Assembly (NCBI RefSeq): GCF_014193425.1
Contig: NZ_JACHZG010000001.1
Coordinates: 62,001-126,000, forward strand
Direction: 5' to 3'
Source of the DNA: Microlunatus antarcticus
GTDB taxonomy: Bacteria; Actinomycetota; Actinomycetes; Propionibacteriales; Propionibacteriaceae
Length of the DNA stretch: 64,000 bases
The number at the start of each line of letters is the position of its first letter. Positions within the stretch are counted from its first letter, which is position 1. Below, piece by piece: positions 8,263-62,837 of this stretch. The position numbers and the translations under genes are program-made. The notes under the pieces were generated by a model. That model was given only the letters and a program-made list of their open reading frames with translations. It was not told the origin of the DNA and did no database searches.

Positions 8263-11200
8263 TCAACCGCAGACGCCGCGGATCTCGACGGCGCTGTAGC
8301 CCCAGGCCTTGGCGGTCGCCTTGTCCGCGACCGTGACCGGGGTCCCCGCGCGGGTGGTTCCGGTGGTGCGCTGCACCCAGTAGCCGGTGCTCGGGGACTT
8401 GAAGGTCTCGTCGTGGACGACCTTCTGCCCGGAGACCGGCTTCGGGTCGTAGCGGGACCCGATGACCCGGCCCACGCCCCAGACCACGGAGCCCGACGCT
8501 TGCGGGGTCAGGGTGACCTGGGGTGCGGAGCCGAGGCCGGCCTGGTGCGCGCTGGCGCCCACCGTGGACCGGGCCCCGCTGAACCCGGCCACGGTCATGG
8601 TGACGGTGTGGCCCTTCTGCGCCAGGCTCGCGGTGACCCTCACGTTGCTGAGCTTCTGGGCCGCGTACGCCTGCCAGATCTCGCTGCTGCCGGCGCCGGT
8701 GCTGTCGCGCTGCACCAGGCTCCAGGTGAGACCGCCGCCGGTGACCTTGGTGACCGACTGGCCGCCCTTGGTCGAGCCGTTCACCGAGACGAACGCGAGC
8801 AGGAGCTCACCGCTCTTCTTGGTGCTGAACTTCGGGCTCGGGACCGAGCCGTCTCCGTCGCGCTGGTCGACGTTGACGTCGAGCTCCCGCTTGGGCTCGG
8901 CCGGTGTGCAGGACTGCGCACCGACGGTGATGCTCACGGTCGCCGGGGCGGAGTCGAGCGTGCCGTCGTTGGCGGTGTAGGTGAACGAGTCGGGCCCGGT
9001 GTAGCCGTCGGCGGGGACGTACGTCCGGGCCAGACCGATCCCGGTCAGCGTCCCGTGGCTCGGCTGAGTCGTCGTGTAGGTGAGCGTGTCGGCGTCGGCG
9101 TCCGTCCCGCGCAGGACGATCGGGGTGGGCGACTCGAACCCGGCGGTCACGGTGAGGTTCGTGACCGTCGGAGCCGTGTTCAGGCGGTGGCCGACGGTGA
9201 TGCGGACCGTCCCCGGCGTCGAGTCGAGCTTGCCGTCGTTGGCGGTGTAGGTGAACGAGTCGGGGCCGGAGTAGCCAGCGGCCGGGGTGTAGGTGCGCTG
9301 GGTGCCCGTCCCGGTCAGGGTCCCGTGGGCCGGGGTTCCGGTCGTGTAGGTGAGAGGGTCGCCATCGGGGTCGGTCCCGGCCAGGGAGACCGGGAGGGAC
9401 GTCTCGAACGCCGTCGTCACGGGGACGTCCTCGACCACCGGGGCCCGGTTCGGGTCCACCCCCACGGTGATGCTCACCGAGGCCGGCTGGGACTCGAGCG
9501 CTCCGTCGCTGGCCGTGTAGGTGAACGAGTCCGCGCCGCTGTAGCCGGGGTCCGGTGTGTAGGTCAGCTCGGGTGCCGTGCCGGACAGCGTCCCGTGCGC
9601 CGGGTCGCCCACGGTGTAGGTGAGGGTGTCGCCGTCGGGGTCGGTCCCGGAGAGGGTGACCGGGGTCGCTGACTCGAACCTGGCCGTCACGGCGACGTTC
9701 GTCACCACGGGGGCCGCATTCGGCTTCTCCGTCACGACGATGGAGACCGTGGCGGCCTCCGACTCCTCGGTGCCGTCGTTGGCCGTGTAGACGAACTCGT
9801 CGGGGCCGGAGTAGCCGTCCTCGGGCGTGTAGATCAACTCCGGGCCGGTGCCGGTCTGCTCCAGCGTGCCGTGCTCCGGGTCGCCCACCGTGAAGGTCAG
9901 GGGATCGTCGTCGGCGTCGGAGCCGGACAGGGTGACAGCGACAGTCTTCTGGTACCCGGCGGTGACGTCGAGGTCGTTGACGACCGGGGCGCTGTTGGGC
10001 TTCTTGGCCACGGTGATGATGACGGTTGCGGGCGCGGAGTCGACGGTGCCGTCGTTGGCGGTGTAGGTGAACGAGTCGTCGCCGGAGAAGCCGTCGTCGG
10101 GTGTGTAGGTCAGCTCCGGACCGGTGCCGGTCTGCTTCAGGGTGCCGTGCTCGGGATCGGTCGTCGCGTAGGTCAGGTCGTCGTTGTCGGGGTCGGAGCC
10201 GGACAGGGGGACTTCGACGGTCTTCTCGTACGACGCGGTGACCTGGAGGTCGTTGACGGTCGGGACGCCGTTCGGCTTCGCCGTCACGTTGATCGTGACC
10301 GTGGCGGACTTGGAGTCGCTCGTACCGTCGTTGGCGGTGTAGGTGAACGTGTCGGTGCCGGAGTAGCCGTCGTCGGGTGTGTAGGTCAGCTGCGAGCTGG
10401 TTCCGGTCTGCTTCAGGGTGCCGTGCTCGGGACTGGTCGTCTTGTAGGTCAGGTCGTCGCCGTCGGCGTCGGAGCCGGGCAGCGTGATCGGGACCTCGGT
10501 CTCGTACGCCGTGGTCACGGTCAGGTCGGCCGTCACCGGCGCGTTCGTCACGGTCAGGGTGGCGACGTTGCTGGTCGCCGTGCCGGTCTCGTTCGTGAAC
10601 ACGGCGCGGAACCGGGCGCCCTGGTCCGCAGCCTTCGTGCTCGACGCGTACGTCATGTTGGTCGCGTCGGGGATGTCGACGAAGTCACCGGTGCCGTCGG
10701 CGCGCTGCCACTGGACGGTCGGCGCGGGGGTGCCGGTGGCCGCGGCGGTGAAGGTGGCCGTCGCCCCGAGCCGGACGCTGGCCGACGCCGGGGACGAGGT
10801 CACGAAGGGTGCGGGACCCGTGGTGATGGCGGTGCTCAGCAGGTAGCCGGCGGAGATCGCGGTGACCGTGCCGTCGTTGAGCGAGGCCGGGACGTTGGTC
10901 TGGCCGTCGTAGTTGTAGCCCCAGGCGGTGACCTTTCCGTCGGAGCTCAGGGCGAGGCTGTGATACTCGCCGGCGGAGATCGCGGTGACCGTCTTGTCGG
11001 CGAGCGAGGCCGGGATGTCGGTCTGACCGTAGTCGTCGTAGCCCCAGGCGGTGATTCTCCCGTCGGAGGTGAGAGCGAGGTTGTGGTAGCCGCCGGCGGC
11101 GATCGCGATGACGGTCTCGTCGGCGAGCGAGGCCGGTACATCGGACTCGCCGTCGCCGTTGTAGCCCCAGGCGGTGATCTTCCCATCGGAGGTGAGGGCG

Positions 11201-11832
11201 AGGCTGTGGTAGCCGCCGGCGGCGATCGCGGTGACCGTCTTGTCGGCGAGGGAGTCCGGTACATCGGACTCGCCTTCGCCGTTGTAGCCCCAGGCGGTGA
11301 TCTTCCCGTCGGAGGTGAGGGCGAGGCTGTGGTAGTCGCCGGCGGAGATCGCGGTGACCGTCTTGTCGGCGAGGGAGTCCGGGATGTCGGTCTGGTCGGA
11401 GCCATCGAAGCCCCAGGCGGTGATCTTCCCGTCAGAGGTCAGGGCGAGGCTGTAATAGTCGCCGGCGGAGATCGCGGTGACCGTCTTGTCGGCGAGGGAG
11501 TCCGGGACGTCGACCTGACCTTCGGTGTTGTAGCCCCAGGCAGTGACCGTCCCGTCCGGCGTCAGTGCCAGACCGTGGTACGTGCCCGCGTCGACCGCCG
11601 TGGCGCCGGTGGTGGCGAGCGAGGCCGGGACGTCGAGGATGCCGCAGCAGCCGTCGCCCCAGGCCGTGACCGGGCCCGGGGGCGCGGCGGCGGATGCGCT
11701 CGGCGCGGCGGTGGTCAGCAGGCCGAGCACCATCAGCAGGGCGGCGGTGACGAGGGCGACGACGCGTCGTCCTGTTCGGCGTCCGAGGGGCGGCGGCGCT
11801 GCGGGCAGGTCAGGCAGTGCGGGGTGCGACAT
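8263..11832 (-). CDS. Large secreted protein: seven RCC1-type repeats, Ig-like domain, six cadherin-like domains
   Basis: A 1189-residue exported protein. ATG 11832 gives a signal peptide (RRTGRRVV, hydrophobic core, ASA-AAP). Residues 55 to about 340 hold seven near-identical 41-residue units of the form K-ITAWGYN-x5-DVP-x-SLADKTVTAI-x-AG-x-YHSLALTSDG, the RCC1/alpha-tubulin-suppressor signature, enough for one seven-bladed propeller. An Ig-like domain follows (PASASVRLGATATF), then six units of about 90 residues with a DPDGDTLTY calcium-binding-type motif and YSGPDSFTYTANDG, and a C-terminal beta-rich domain ending EIRGVCG. There is no LPXTG or membrane anchor, so it is probably released or held at the surface by its C-terminal domain. 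Adhesion or surface structure is a reasonable inference; no enzymatic domain is visible. Confidence 0.85.
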   Translation of the reverse strand: MSHPALPDLPAAPPPLGRRTGRRVVALVTAALLMVLGLLTTAAPSASAAAPPGPVTAWGDGCCGILDVPASLATTGATAVDAGTYHGLALTPDGTVTAWGYNTEGQVDVPDSLADKTVTAISAGDYYSLALTSDGKITAWGFDGSDQTDIPDSLADKTVTAISAGDYHSLALTSDGKITAWGYNGEGESDVPDSLADKTVTAIAAGGYHSLALTSDGKITAWGYNGDGESDVPASLADETVIAIAAGGYHNLALTSDGRITAWGYDDYGQTDIPASLADKTVTAISAGEYHSLALSSDGKVTAWGYNYDGQTNVPASLNDGTVTAISAGYLLSTAITTGPAPFVTSSPASASVRLGATATFTAAATGTPAPTVQWQRADGTGDFVDIPDATNMTYASSTKAADQGARFRAVFTNETGTATSNVATLTVTNAPVTADLTVTTAYETEVPITLPGSDADGDDLTYKTTSPEHGTLKQTGTSSQLTYTPDDGYSGTDTFTYTANDGTSDSKSATVTINVTAKPNGVPTVNDLQVTASYEKTVEVPLSGSDPDNDDLTYATTDPEHGTLKQTGTGPELTYTPDDGFSGDDSFTYTANDGTVDSAPATVIITVAKKPNSAPVVNDLDVTAGYQKTVAVTLSGSDADDDPLTFTVGDPEHGTLEQTGTGPELIYTPEDGYSGPDEFVYTANDGTEESEAATVSIVVTEKPNAAPVVTNVAVTARFESATPVTLSGTDPDGDTLTYTVGDPAHGTLSGTAPELTYTPDPGYSGADSFTYTASDGALESQPASVSITVGVDPNRAPVVEDVPVTTAFETSLPVSLAGTDPDGDPLTYTTGTPAHGTLTGTGTQRTYTPAAGYSGPDSFTYTANDGKLDSTPGTVRITVGHRLNTAPTVTNLTVTAGFESPTPIVLRGTDADADTLTYTTTQPSHGTLTGIGLARTYVPADGYTGPDSFTYTANDGTLDSAPATVSITVGAQSCTPAEPKRELDVNVDQRDGDGSVPSPKFSTKKSGELLLAFVSVNGSTKGGQSVTKVTGGGLTWSLVQRDSTGAGSSEIWQAYAAQKLSNVRVTASLAQKGHTVTMTVAGFSGARSTVGASAHQAGLGSAPQVTLTPQASGSVVWGVGRVIGSRYDPKPVSGQKVVHDETFKSPSTGYWVQRTTGTTRAGTPVTVADKATAKAWGYSAVEIRGVCG
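10810..11670 (-). repeat. Seven tandem ~123-bp repeats encoding the RCC1 blades
   Basis: The propeller is encoded by seven DNA units of about 123 bp. The middle five are especially alike: nearly the same nucleotide strings recur for TAWGYN, SLADKTVTAI and YHSLALTSDG. This level of identity implies recent duplication or gene conversion and makes copy-number change by slippage or recombination likely. Variation is concentrated in the loop between TAWGYN and DVP. Confidence 0.85.
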
Positions 11833-11983: not shown

Positions 11984-12481
11984 ATGAGCAACGAGGAGCA
12001 GGCCACCGCCGAGGACGAGCGCACGATCGCCGCGCTGGTCGAGAAGGCGTCCATCGCCTTGGTCACGACCGTGGCCGAGGACGGGTCGCTGGTGAGCCGC
12101 CCGCTCGCCGTGCAGCAGCGCGAGTTCGACGGCGACCTGTGGTTCTTCACCGAGGACCCCTCGCCCAAGACCGCCCAGGTCCGCGCGAACGACCAGGTCA
12201 ACGTCGCGATCCAGGCCGGCCACGGCTGGCTTTCGATCAGCGGCCGCGGCAGCGTGAGCCAGGACCAGGCCAAGATCGACGAGCTGTGGAGCACCGGCGC
12301 CGAGGCGTGGTTCGAGGGTGGTCGGGACGACCCGGCCGTCGCGCTGCTGCGGGTGCAGGGCGTCACGGCCGAGTACTGGACCTCCAAGGCCCCGATGATC
12401 GTGACCCTGGCCAAGTACGCCAAGGCCGCCGTCACCGGCGGCCGCCCGAACGTGGGCGAGAGCAAGGTCGTCGAGCTCTAG
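11984..12481 (+). CDS. Pyridoxamine 5'-phosphate oxidase-like FMN-binding protein (general stress 26 type)
   Basis: A 165-residue split-barrel flavin-binding protein. Features are an N-terminal helix followed by ASIALVTTVAEDGSLVSRPLAVQ, DLWFFTEDPSPKTAQVR, VNVAIQ and WLSISGRGSV, the layout of general-stress-protein-26/YdaG relatives. These bind FMN or related cofactors and are thought to act in stress-linked redox chemistry; true pyridoxine-phosphate oxidase activity is unlikely. TAGGTT at 11972-11977 lies exactly 6 nt before ATG 11984, so the mRNA is probably leaderless. It diverges from the RCC1-repeat gene and converges on a pair of membrane paralogues, from which it is separated by a 19-nt-lattice repeat cassette. 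Confidence 0.88.
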   Translation: MSNEEQATAEDERTIAALVEKASIALVTTVAEDGSLVSRPLAVQQREFDGDLWFFTEDPSPKTAQVRANDQVNVAIQAGHGWLSISGRGSVSQDQAKIDELWSTGAEAWFEGGRDDPAVALLRVQGVTAEYWTSKAPMIVTLAKYAKAAVTGGRPNVGESKVVEL

Positions 12482-12498: not shown

Positions 12499-12604
12499 CA
12501 GCCGCGCACGGTGGGCACAGCCGCGCAGATTCGGTACAACCGCGTACCTCCGACTCATCCGCACAGGCCGCGGCCTGTGCGGATGGGTGCAGGGTGCGCG
12601 GGTG
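12499..12604. repeat. Six-unit, 19-nt-phased repeat cassette with central 30-bp palindrome
   Basis: Between convergent genes. Direct 11-nt units start at 12499, 12518, 12537 and 12556 (CAGCCGCGCAC, CAGCCGCGCAG, CAACCGCGTAC, CATCCGCACAG) and inverted units at 12575 and 12594 (CTGTGCGGATG, GTGCGCGGGTG); all steps are exactly 19 nt. Positions 12556-12585 are a perfect 30-bp palindrome. The same architecture occurs at 26243-26346. It would form a strong hairpin and may terminate transcription both ways, but that alone does not explain the phasing. Confidence 0.75.
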
Positions 12605-12607
12605 TGC

Positions 12608-13219
12608 TCAGGCGTTGAGCGCGAGCCAGCGGCGGGCACGGCGGGACCTGACCACCGCGCGCACCGCACGAACCAGCATCCAGGCGACGACTGCGGAGAA
12701 CATGATGAGGGAGCCCCACCTCATCCCGCCCAGGATCATGCCGAGGTACAGCACCGTGAGCCCGAGGTAGGTCGGGACGTAGCGGCCCTCCACCACCATC
12801 GCCTGGGCGGCGTCCGTGACGACCGCACGACGATCCTCGAGCACGGACCGGCCTTCGGTGACCTGCCGGCGGAGCCAGGTGCGGTCGCCCCGGGACAGGA
12901 AGGCGTCCGAGGCGACGAACGGCCGGGCGGCACCAGACGTCCGGACGGCGCCGATGATCATGAGGACGAGACCGAGACCCATGAGGCCGAAGGTGGCGTA
13001 GAGCGTCCGGAGCCGGAGGTCCCACACCTCGTCTCCGTCCGGATCGAGGATGAAGTCGACCGTCCAGACGACCCCCAGCAGCACGGCGAGGCCGAGCGCG
13101 AGTCCCAGGGCACGGCGGACCCGCAGCCGGCGCCGGACGGCGGCGAGCTCGGGGTCCAGCTCATCCTTGGCCGCGATCCGGTGGGCGTCGGCCCAAGGAT
13201 CGCGGGTGGTCGTGCCCAC
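12608..13219 (-). CDS. Four-helix membrane protein of unknown function, tandem paralogue B
   Basis: A 203-residue protein starting at GTG 13219, with the N-terminal motif TTTRDPWADA then ELAAVRRRL, two hydrophobic helices (LGLALGLAVLLGVVW and ATFGLMGLGLVLMIIGAV), a basic cytoplasmic loop containing FLSRGDRTWLRRQVTEGR, and two more helices before an Arg-rich tail (RSRRARRWL). It is a clear paralogue of the gene immediately upstream: same length, same order of motifs, about 5 nt between them. I do not recognise the family. The pair follows the LysR gene in the same direction, suggesting one transcript, but functional linkage is unproven. Confidence 0.7.
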   Translation of the reverse strand: MGTTTRDPWADAHRIAAKDELDPELAAVRRRLRVRRALGLALGLAVLLGVVWTVDFILDPDGDEVWDLRLRTLYATFGLMGLGLVLMIIGAVRTSGAARPFVASDAFLSRGDRTWLRRQVTEGRSVLEDRRAVVTDAAQAMVVEGRYVPTYLGLTVLYLGMILGGMRWGSLIMFSAVVAWMLVRAVRAVVRSRRARRWLALNA

Positions 13220-24512: not shown

Positions 24513-26213
<1,701 letters not shown>

Positions 26214-26242: not shown

Positions 26243-26346
26243 GTCGGCACACCTTGTACGGGCCGGCACACCCTGGCCCGGTCGGCACACCCTGCAGGGT
26301 GTGCCGACACGAGCAGGGGGTGCCGCCGGGAGGAAGGTGTGCCGGG
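26243..26346. repeat. Second six-unit, 19-nt-phased repeat cassette with central 28-bp palindrome
   Basis: Direct 11-nt units start at 26243, 26262 and 26281 (GTCGGCACACC, GCCGGCACACC, GTCGGCACACC) and inverted units at 26298, 26317 and 26336 (GGTGTGCCGAC, GGGGTGCCGCC, GGTGTGCCGGG). Steps within each arm are exactly 19 nt. Positions 26281-26308 are a perfect 28-bp palindrome. Like the 12.5-kb cassette it sits between convergent genes, and its last unit ends just before the stop of the minus-strand gene. The three direct units can pair with the three inverted ones as a long interrupted hairpin. Confidence 0.75.
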
Positions 26347-26535
26347 TCAGCGGGTCCCGGTGACCGCCTGCAGCCGGGCGACCCGGCGCAGGAGGCCGCG
26401 GCGGGGCCGTGGTGCGTGACGGTCCGGTGGTTCTTCCGGCCAGGGCAGGTCCGGTCGGCTCCGGGAGCCGAGCTGGTCGTAGGGGAGGGACAGCCCGGGG
26501 CTGCCGAGGCTCCCGAGCGGGACGTGCTGGGTCAT
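26347..26535 (-). CDS. Small hypothetical protein (62 aa), Pro/Arg-rich
   Basis: ATG 26535 is preceded by AAGGA with 8-nt spacing. The 62-residue product begins MTQHVPLGSLGSPGLSLPYD, has a proline-rich middle (DLPWPEEPPDRH) and a basic amphipathic C-terminus (RRGLLRRVARLQAV), but no signal peptide or membrane helix. I recognise no family. It lies 139 nt downstream of a 24-codon frame with a perfect ribosome site and may share its transcript. Its stop codon abuts the repeat cassette. Supported by the ribosome site, spacing and position, not by homology. Confidence 0.45.
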   Translation of the reverse strand: MTQHVPLGSLGSPGLSLPYDQLGSRSRPDLPWPEEPPDRHAPRPRRGLLRRVARLQAVTGTR

Positions 26536-46370: not shown

Positions 46371-46466
46371 GAGCCCGGTCCCCCGCGTGGCGGCACCTCA
46401 CCCAACTCCCCCAGGGCTTAGCGGCAGCAAGGGTCAGTGAGCTCTGCCGGGTGCGCGGGGGGCTCT
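46371..46466 (+). ncRNA. ffs: Signal recognition particle 4.5S-type RNA
   Basis: The core AGGGCTTAGCGGCAGCAAGG with GGTCAGTGAGCTCTGCCGGG is the conserved domain IV of the bacterial SRP RNA, close to the mycobacterial form. The 5' part (GAGCCC, CCCCCGCG, GGCGGCA) pairs with the 3' part (TGCCGGG, CGCGGGGG, GGGCTC) to make one long hairpin of about 95 nt. GGGGGGCTCTTT at the end resembles a terminator. It lies between tRNA-Ser and dnaX, a common actinobacterial position. Ends are estimated from the pairing. Confidence 0.88.
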
Positions 46467-46478
46467 TTCGTCTCCGGG

Positions 46479-62761: not shown

Positions 62762-62837
<76 letters not shown>

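Follow-up and report, generated by a model that had tools for sequence, protein, structure and literature searches.

Inverted 19-nt arrays at gene 3′ ends of Microlunatus antarcticus as probable cognate sites of an AbiEi- and Vsr-like protein encoded between copies of the same arrays

What is an array of three direct and three inverted copies of a short unit, set around a perfect palindrome between two convergent genes, doing in an actinobacterial chromosome? We addressed this question for the array located at 26.2 kb of a 64,000-nt stretch of Microlunatus antarcticus (NCBI RefSeq assembly GCF_014193425.1, contig NZ_JACHZG010000001.1, positions 62,001 to 126,000; hereafter the window). An original prediction, made from the sequence alone, had suggested that this array and another one at 12.5 kb represent a family of bidirectional terminators, protein-binding arrays or mobile units resembling repetitive extragenic palindromes (REPs). 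We conclude, with a probability of about 65%, that a two-part chromosomal system is at work, in which the 26.2-kb array provides multiple cognate binding sites for a protein with AbiEi-like and Vsr-like domains. The results point to an undescribed gene-plus-repeat system in actinobacteria: no description of such arrays, or of such a pairing of protein and repeat, was found in the open PubMed Central (PMC) text, that is, in titles and the first part of abstracts, with subscription journals and most preprints outside it.

The six units were present exactly as predicted, direct at 26243, 26262 and 26281 and inverted at 26298, 26317 and 26336, at exact 19-nt steps. These positions are the starts of the 11-mers first noticed, while the unit frame used here starts at 26245. 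The announced 28-bp palindrome (26281–26308) is perfect, the right arm is 78% complementary to the left over 50 nt, and the last unit, ending at 26346, indeed adjoins the stop codon of the minus-strand gene. The convergent arrangement of this gene with the HerA-like gene on the other side is real, since open reading frames (ORFs) resembling the 62-aa ORF end at the same place in the relatives G003 and G017. The 12.5-kb array has the same design with another core (CCGCACAGG), as had been claimed: the 19-nt step and the 12-nt offset from unit start to axis are equal. Its left units begin at 12502, 12521, 12540 and 12559, and its right arm has two clear units.

These two arrays are the two matches in the window at a score of at least 27, a threshold at which order-2 shuffling of 200 kb of G003, done three times, gave 0, 0 and 1 match. 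In the 4.37-Mb genome of M. antarcticus itself (G000), the pattern CGGCACACC-N10-CGGCACACC with up to two mismatches yielded 63 matches (30 forward and 33 reverse), as against none for the reversed control. With this excess, and with recurrence in independent genomes and public contigs, a chance palindrome or an assembly artefact, for which no supporting point was found, can in practice be dismissed. The genome contains at least 15 arrays with the core of the 26.2-kb array (family A) and at least 12 with the second core (family B), counting only centres with no or one mismatch among 59 pattern matches (23 for the reversed control), so that weaker members may exist. In all these arrays one fixed distance separates the facing innermost units; on each arm the next unit follows 19 nt outward, outer units being weaker. 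The proposed family of elements was therefore borne out, as several families, A and B in this genome.

Is it the unit or the hairpin that is kept? The central unit of family A carries 1.8–2.0 bits at each of its 12 positions, and the next unit 1.2–2.0 bits at positions 2–9 and 0.2–0.6 at the last four (unit consensus CGGCACACCCTGCTCGCGT for family A and CCGCGACCGTTCCTCGCAT for the arrays of genome G009). Spacers adjacent to the centre were not more complementary within arrays than between them, neither in family A (3.07 of 7 versus 3.57) nor in G009 (3.56 versus 3.93); only family B displayed a slight excess (5.0 versus 4.2, reached by 28 of 2000 permutations). Because of this per-unit conservation and of spacers that do not pair preferentially in two of the three sets, it is mainly the unit, rather than a hairpin, that is kept. 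An RNA hairpin as the main explanation was rejected by the spacer test, despite the family B excess.

This bears on the terminator reading, in which the arrays would be plain bidirectional intrinsic terminators with repeats generated by slippage. The RNA of the 26.2-kb array does fold very strongly (−79.2 and −77.5 kcal/mol for the two strands, z −7.4 and −8.2), and an ordinary hairpin was seen by eye at the same junction in G003 and G017. This leaves unexplained, however, the 19-nt periodicity with non-pairing spacers, the use of one core and one step throughout a genome and the presence of matching arrays around one gene family; moreover, the single terminator-like call (26404–26425) lies in the neighbouring ORF and not at the array. 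We consider plain terminators very improbable. Rfam at gathering scores gave nothing at either array; its sole matches in the window were a bacterial small signal recognition particle RNA (46374–46470, plus strand) and a tRNA (62764–62837, minus strand).

In three cases, two arrays of the same family were found about 1 kb apart, and the interval encodes a protein of about 300 aa whose fold is AbiEi-antitoxin-like over residues 1–185 and Vsr/I-Bth0305I-like, that is, a nuclease domain, over residues 188–301. The cognate gene of the window array, enclosed by two arrays, lies elsewhere in the same genome. We aligned 26 members, namely P0001, P0002 and 24 loci of the genus which, being found by profile, are free of the peptide-pattern selection described below. 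PADLOC AbiEi models matched all 26 and AbiEi_4 of Pfam 19; the members matched 11 Pfam families in all, and no transposase is among them. NCBIfam and PHROGs (three and two proteins searched, respectively) gave no match to the nuclease, nor did a PDB sequence search with the alignment at E ≤ 1. The residues E193, D225, E236 and D238 are conserved nearly completely and form a putative catalytic signature. Genes beside the family A and B nuclease genes encode NUDIX, XPB-type helicase, PMT and GH15 proteins.

We further examined how widely gene and arrays occur together. The profile found homologues in 19 of 20 genomes of the genus at E ≤ 1e-10, and from 561 relatives in the GTDB collection (84,980 species genomes) the best 80 loci were taken; among these 80 are loci from Microlunatus, Rhodococcus, Prescottella, Nocardia, Pseudonocardia, Geodermatophilus, Blastococcus, Nakamurella, Jiangella and others. 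A geometry scan around 30 genus loci returned period 19 for all of its eight best combinations of period and offset. With step and axis offset fixed at 19 and 12, arrays were found upstream of 23 and downstream of 16 of the 80 contig loci at score 26 (controls 0 of 380), and of 29 and 20 at score 24 (controls 2). A 20-nt class appeared once other steps were allowed: over 107 loci (27 of the genus and the 80 from GTDB, six loci being present twice, recognisable in the tree as identical or zero-length pairs), the best period was 19 in 51, 20 in 43 and another in 13. Among the 70 contig loci with full flanks, the best period was 19 or 20 in 59, compared with 3 of 70 control zones located 1.8–2.2 kb away, and the combined score reached at least 54 in 46, compared with 2 of 70. 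The genus loci L119, L124 and L132, the stored stretch of which was cut on one side, were left out from the period scan through the motif count given below, and the frame-broken L131 was left out of the tree. Duplicates were kept for the period, flank-core and tree-step analyses and removed for those of core distance, upstream motif and residue conservation.

The two arrays of a gene share their core. Upstream and downstream cores agreed at 11.43 of 12 positions, as compared with 8.07 between genes (74 of the 107 loci, those scoring at least 54, duplicates included; the largest of 5000 permutations was 8.59), and the upstream axis precedes the aligned coding start by a median of 140 bp. The step, 19 or 20, follows the protein tree, with 11 changes for 31 expected and none of 500 shuffles as low (93 labelled rows, near-copies included). 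For 37 step-19 loci, the distance between cores correlated with that between N-terminal parts (r 0.38, partial 0.31) better than with that between nuclease domains (r 0.25, partial 0.09). Two further genomes agreed by eye: in G300, where the array was found by pattern first, one of the two homologues is flanked by arrays with that same, CGCATA-type core, and in G006 an array unlike those of two genes matches the downstream array of a third. A cognate pairing of gene and arrays is thus highly probable. Per-unit conservation, non-pairing spacers in two of three families, and a core and step that follow the protein argue strongly, if indirectly, for the protein-binding arrays that had been put forward as one option. 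An order-level search with one core matched 5 of 391 genomes (G000, G014, G135, G300 and G180); relying on a single core, it is a poor guide to the frequency of the system, and the match in G180, where only remote homologues occur, is probably due to chance or to another family.

Of 101 nuclease genes, 74 have a DnaA-box-like motif, TRTCCACA (TTATCCACA/TTGTCCACA), which resembles the DnaA consensus, in the 200 nt upstream, and none has it downstream; 2 of 593 control windows contain it. It shows a strong orientation bias of 87 to 7, and lies mostly 60–100 nt before the aligned coding start (for example at L186, L159 and L172). Within 250 nt of other arrays it occurred once in 54, beside the G009 gene. 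This hints at a control of the nuclease genes by DnaA or by a factor with the same site.

Beyond the flanks of the gene, arrays with its core are dispersed. In G009, 173 + 176 two-unit matches to the own core were obtained (control 74 + 59), and 32 distinct arrays were present in the 30 loci read, the flank of the gene included. In the Blastococcus genome G397 there were 14 + 10 matches (control 0 + 0); all six Geodermatophilaceae genomes had matches, arrays beside genes included (controls 0 to 3). Of the four matches in G393, a pair spaced 1.07 kb apart encloses the nuclease gene. The dispersed core depends on the species: the family A pattern, with its 63 matches in G000, had 0 to 5 in each of 18 congeners (reversed controls 0 to 3), and in the nineteenth, G007, most of the 38 matches carry CGGCGCACC, the core present beside its own gene L141. 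Other arrangements were also observed. In Geodermatophilus obscurus (G394), the YTGCGGTG core occurs as well in one-directional arrays with 20-nt steps and another, AGCCAGGACGCG-like spacer type (G394:C7:63993-64080, G394:C10:199894-199961 and G394:C22:208882-208929), and G007 has two long one-directional series of 19-nt own-core units, with more units per arm than usual (G007:C1:968511-968999 and G007:C1:2387610-2387808).

The dispersed arrays lie after stop codons. In G000 and G009 the median distance from array axis to nearest stop codon was 69–82 nt, and the 46 classified junctions, which include those beside nuclease genes (two locus-edge arrays of G009 omitted, one flagged inside a called gene), comprised 27 convergent, 19 tandem and no divergent ones, as compared with 14, 56 and 57 for other gaps of at least 60 nt in the same stretches. 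The preference for convergent junctions, whose absence would have counted against the original prediction, was hence found in two genomes. The eight arrays of G014, where gene calls are weak, were two convergent, five tandem and one divergent; the home-made caller missed both the 62-aa ORF at the window array and the frame-broken nuclease gene of G014.

The sites themselves turn over between species. The HerA-like protein of G003 is 90% identical to that of the window; the junctions in G003 matching the 26.2-kb and 12.5-kb arrays contain no array and have a short, ordinary hairpin-like sequence instead. Three more sites of G000 (L033 and L034 of family A, L067 of family B) also have no array there, so that all five compared sites are empty in G003; at L033 only a few bases separate the aligned gene ends. 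The L066 site, in a rearranged region, was excluded from this comparison. G017, compared at the 26.2-kb site only, has no array. The junction of the family A gene is occupied in G003 by about 2.1 kb of other sequence, with no array (best score 25) and no listed homologue. At a score of at least 29, 600 kb of G003 hold two arrays (L277:7969 and L324:13238), the cores of which differ from those around the G003 genes L118 and L140; one of these cores is similar to that next to gene L115 of G017, so this array may be left over from an ancestral core.

Do the arrays then serve the host? They could be the sites of a resident DNA-binding factor, selected at gene 3′ ends for factor-assisted or roadblock termination, insulation of convergent transcription or chromosome organisation, the nuclease domain being incidental or having another role. 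A location behind stop codons, the lack of divergent junctions among the 46 classified, strong conservation at particular positions of the unit in place of a uniform decay, the very strong transcript hairpin and the stable location of the nuclease gene within clades would all fit. Site turnover (none of five occupied in G003), the scarcity of arrays in the 600 kb of G003, cores that vary widely between species and the near-complete conservation of the nuclease signature do not, and we regard such a host regulon as unlikely.

The gene evolves differently from its surroundings. Within clades, and across genera, it keeps its neighbours, whereas its protein diverges faster than theirs (median identity 66% versus 86%, lower in 29 of 32 pairs chosen by hand from a shared-neighbour list). 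Between relatives, the flanks of the gene appear swapped in three groups (L149 versus L167/L177; L192 versus other Blastococcus and Geodermatophilus loci, L196/L204; L168 versus L197/L211), as would be expected if recombination between its two arrays had flipped the gene. Protein and core diverge rapidly, as in arms races, and this, together with the PADLOC matches of all 26 members, recalls a defence or addiction system, a derivative of a type IV toxin–antitoxin in which the AbiEi-like part would restrain or aim the nuclease and the arrays would be self marks or sinks keeping the enzyme off other DNA. Nevertheless, no AbiEii toxin is present among the four genes flanking the two G000 nuclease loci (the only loci examined), searches with P0001 matched none of 72,556 plasmid records at E ≤ 1e-20 and none of 50,697 phage records at E ≤ 1e-10, and the location of the gene within clades is lasting; this makes such a role improbable.

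The binding-array reading, which we prefer, suggests the following mechanism. The AbiEi-like N-terminal half, a winged helix, would read the DNA, and the C-terminal Vsr/I-Bth0305I-like domain would be the nuclease. One protomer would read each 19-bp unit (20-bp in other clades); since such a unit is just under two helical turns, protomers could stack on one face of the DNA, line up along the arms and meet head to head at the dyad. There the nuclease domains would come together and could act on the palindromic centre. The upstream array might double as an operator through which the gene is autoregulated, as AbiEi operators do; AbiEi proteins are reported to recognise 23-bp inverted repeats within the promoters of their own genes (PMC7319586). 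Dispersed arrays would be non-coding dependants turning over between species, surviving at gene 3′ ends, a place where they are almost harmless and might act in termination. Binding and autoregulation are what we infer; cleavage, that is, action of the nuclease at the arrays, we judge somewhat favoured. For its effect at the dispersed arrays the leading options are a multiplication or relocation in the manner of REPINs, which we advance as tentative, and the less probable host function at gene ends. Equally tentative is the wider proposal of an actinobacteria-wide gene-plus-repeat class, convergent with REPINs and their REP-associated tyrosine transposases (RAYTs), where a single-protein AbiEi-Vsr nuclease propagates or rewrites its own arrays over the chromosome in a runaway, PRDM9-like co-evolution, specificity, flanking arrays and dispersed arrays changing together by species, with expression linked to a DnaA-box-like promoter element.

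Several results weigh against this interpretation. As to the pairing, 33 of the 107 loci score below 54, the remote paralogue L281 has no array, and G135 has arrays with no gene detected at E ≤ 1e-10, which means either that the pairing fails there or that the gene was lost. In the 24 step-20 loci the core tracks the middle domain best (r 0.51, for 0.41 with the N-terminal part and 0.40 with the remaining one). The outer units of some arrays (L034 and L038) are out of step. Conservation at E193 and E236–Y243 is partly by construction, as both lie within the peptide patterns that selected the 80 loci. As to mobility, no array insertion as an event and no target duplication were seen, and the stable place of the gene within clades means that the gene itself moves little. 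Apart from a single local duplication in G009, arrays within a family do not resemble each other as recent copies would, and the results therefore fit sites kept by selection just as well. A recent burst of copies, like that of miniature inverted-repeat transposable elements, was set aside, as no pair of G000 arrays stands out, and is retained only as an older or slower process. The orphan arrays of G135 (L308, at G135:C40:9000-13500, L102 and L084) are repeated at a distance of 286 bp, with stretches read as N.

Coordinates of both window arrays and their neighbours are collected in Table 1. The gene preceding the 12.5-kb array adjoins another one (8263–11733, minus strand) that encodes a large protein with tandem GYSGTDTFTYTANDGT-type repeats.

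Table 1. Positions in the window of the two arrays, their parts and the adjacent genes.
Feature	Position	Strand	Description
Family A left arm	26245–26294	+	units 26245–26263 and 26264–26282; half unit 26283–26294 up to the axis
Family A right arm	26295–26344	−	half unit 26295–26306; inverted units 26307–26325 and 26326–26344
Central perfect 28-bp palindrome	26281–26308		dyad axis between 26294 and 26295; innermost unit start 12 nt away
Left neighbour of 26.2-kb array	24513–26213	+	HerA_C (PF05872) helicase-like; stop about 30 nt before the array
Right neighbour of 26.2-kb array	26347–26535	−	62-aa ORF P0003; stop 26347–26349 abuts the last unit
Family B array	12502–12601		core CCGCACAGG; axis between 12570 and 12571
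Left neighbour of family B array	11984–12481	+	pyridoxamine-phosphate-oxidase-like protein (PF16242)
Right neighbour of family B array	12608–13219	−	called ORF, convergent; no Pfam match at E ≤ 0.001

If this interpretation is right, a large and mostly unnamed actinobacterial protein family would gain a DNA target readable from the genome, each gene coming with its own recognition sequence written on both sides in 19- or 20-bp steps. Natural pairs of gene and array would make the co-evolution of protein–DNA specificity testable, and would provide an independent case for the question why bacteria keep dispersed palindromic repeats. A class of 3′-end palindromes otherwise filed as terminators would also be explained.

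How does the system compare with those already known? An intrinsic terminator combines a hairpin with a T-run; the hairpin here is very stable and no T-run terminator was called at the array, although many actinobacterial terminators lack T-runs. Matches to the DUF559 and REase_MTES_1575 families were weak and confined to two and one of the 26 members, respectively (best E 0.018 and 0.0091), the remaining members having none, and a pairing of these families with repeats was not found in the open PMC text. The catalytic fold resembles that of Vsr and of the Vsr-like (EDxHD) homing endonuclease I-Bth0305I. A homing endonuclease gene, however, splits its own target or lies in an intron or intein, whereas the gene here stands free between two complete arrays that have separate axes; in addition, the DNA-reading part of its protein resembles AbiEi, and the dispersed arrays persist uninterrupted. 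With AbiE systems (AbiEi, Rv2827c) the protein shares the AbiEi-type winged helix-turn-helix and antitoxin domain; it differs by its extra C-terminal nuclease domain, by the absence of an adjacent AbiEii nucleotidyltransferase toxin at the two loci examined, and by sites in 19- or 20-bp steps spread over the genome at gene 3′ ends and not only in its own promoter.

The closest parallel is that of REPs and RAYTs. REPs flank RAYT genes, and RAYTs are tyrosine transposases (HUH/Y1). PMC8049555, PMC3733652 and PMC3116915 describe dispersed extragenic palindromic units that outnumber the genes of a chromosomal, mostly vertically inherited enzyme, and PMC3733652 names the REP units by their GTAG and CGTC tags. 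The arrays described here are likewise scattered outside genes, and some copies of the repeat adjoin the cognate gene. In contrast, their units are not 20–40-nt tagged palindromes: they are 19 or 20 nt long, in fixed-step arrays of usually two to three per arm with a gene-specific core, and neither tag occurs in the consensus of family A or of G009. The protein combines AbiEi-like and Vsr-like folds and is not a tyrosine transposase. The system resembles the mobile REP-like units suggested at the outset in its behaviour, both in the flanking of a nuclease gene by matching arrays and in sites that are specific to a species, but it does not belong to REP/RAYT and mobility was not seen. We read the system as one that works like REPIN and RAYT while being unrelated to them, a parallel case and not a member.
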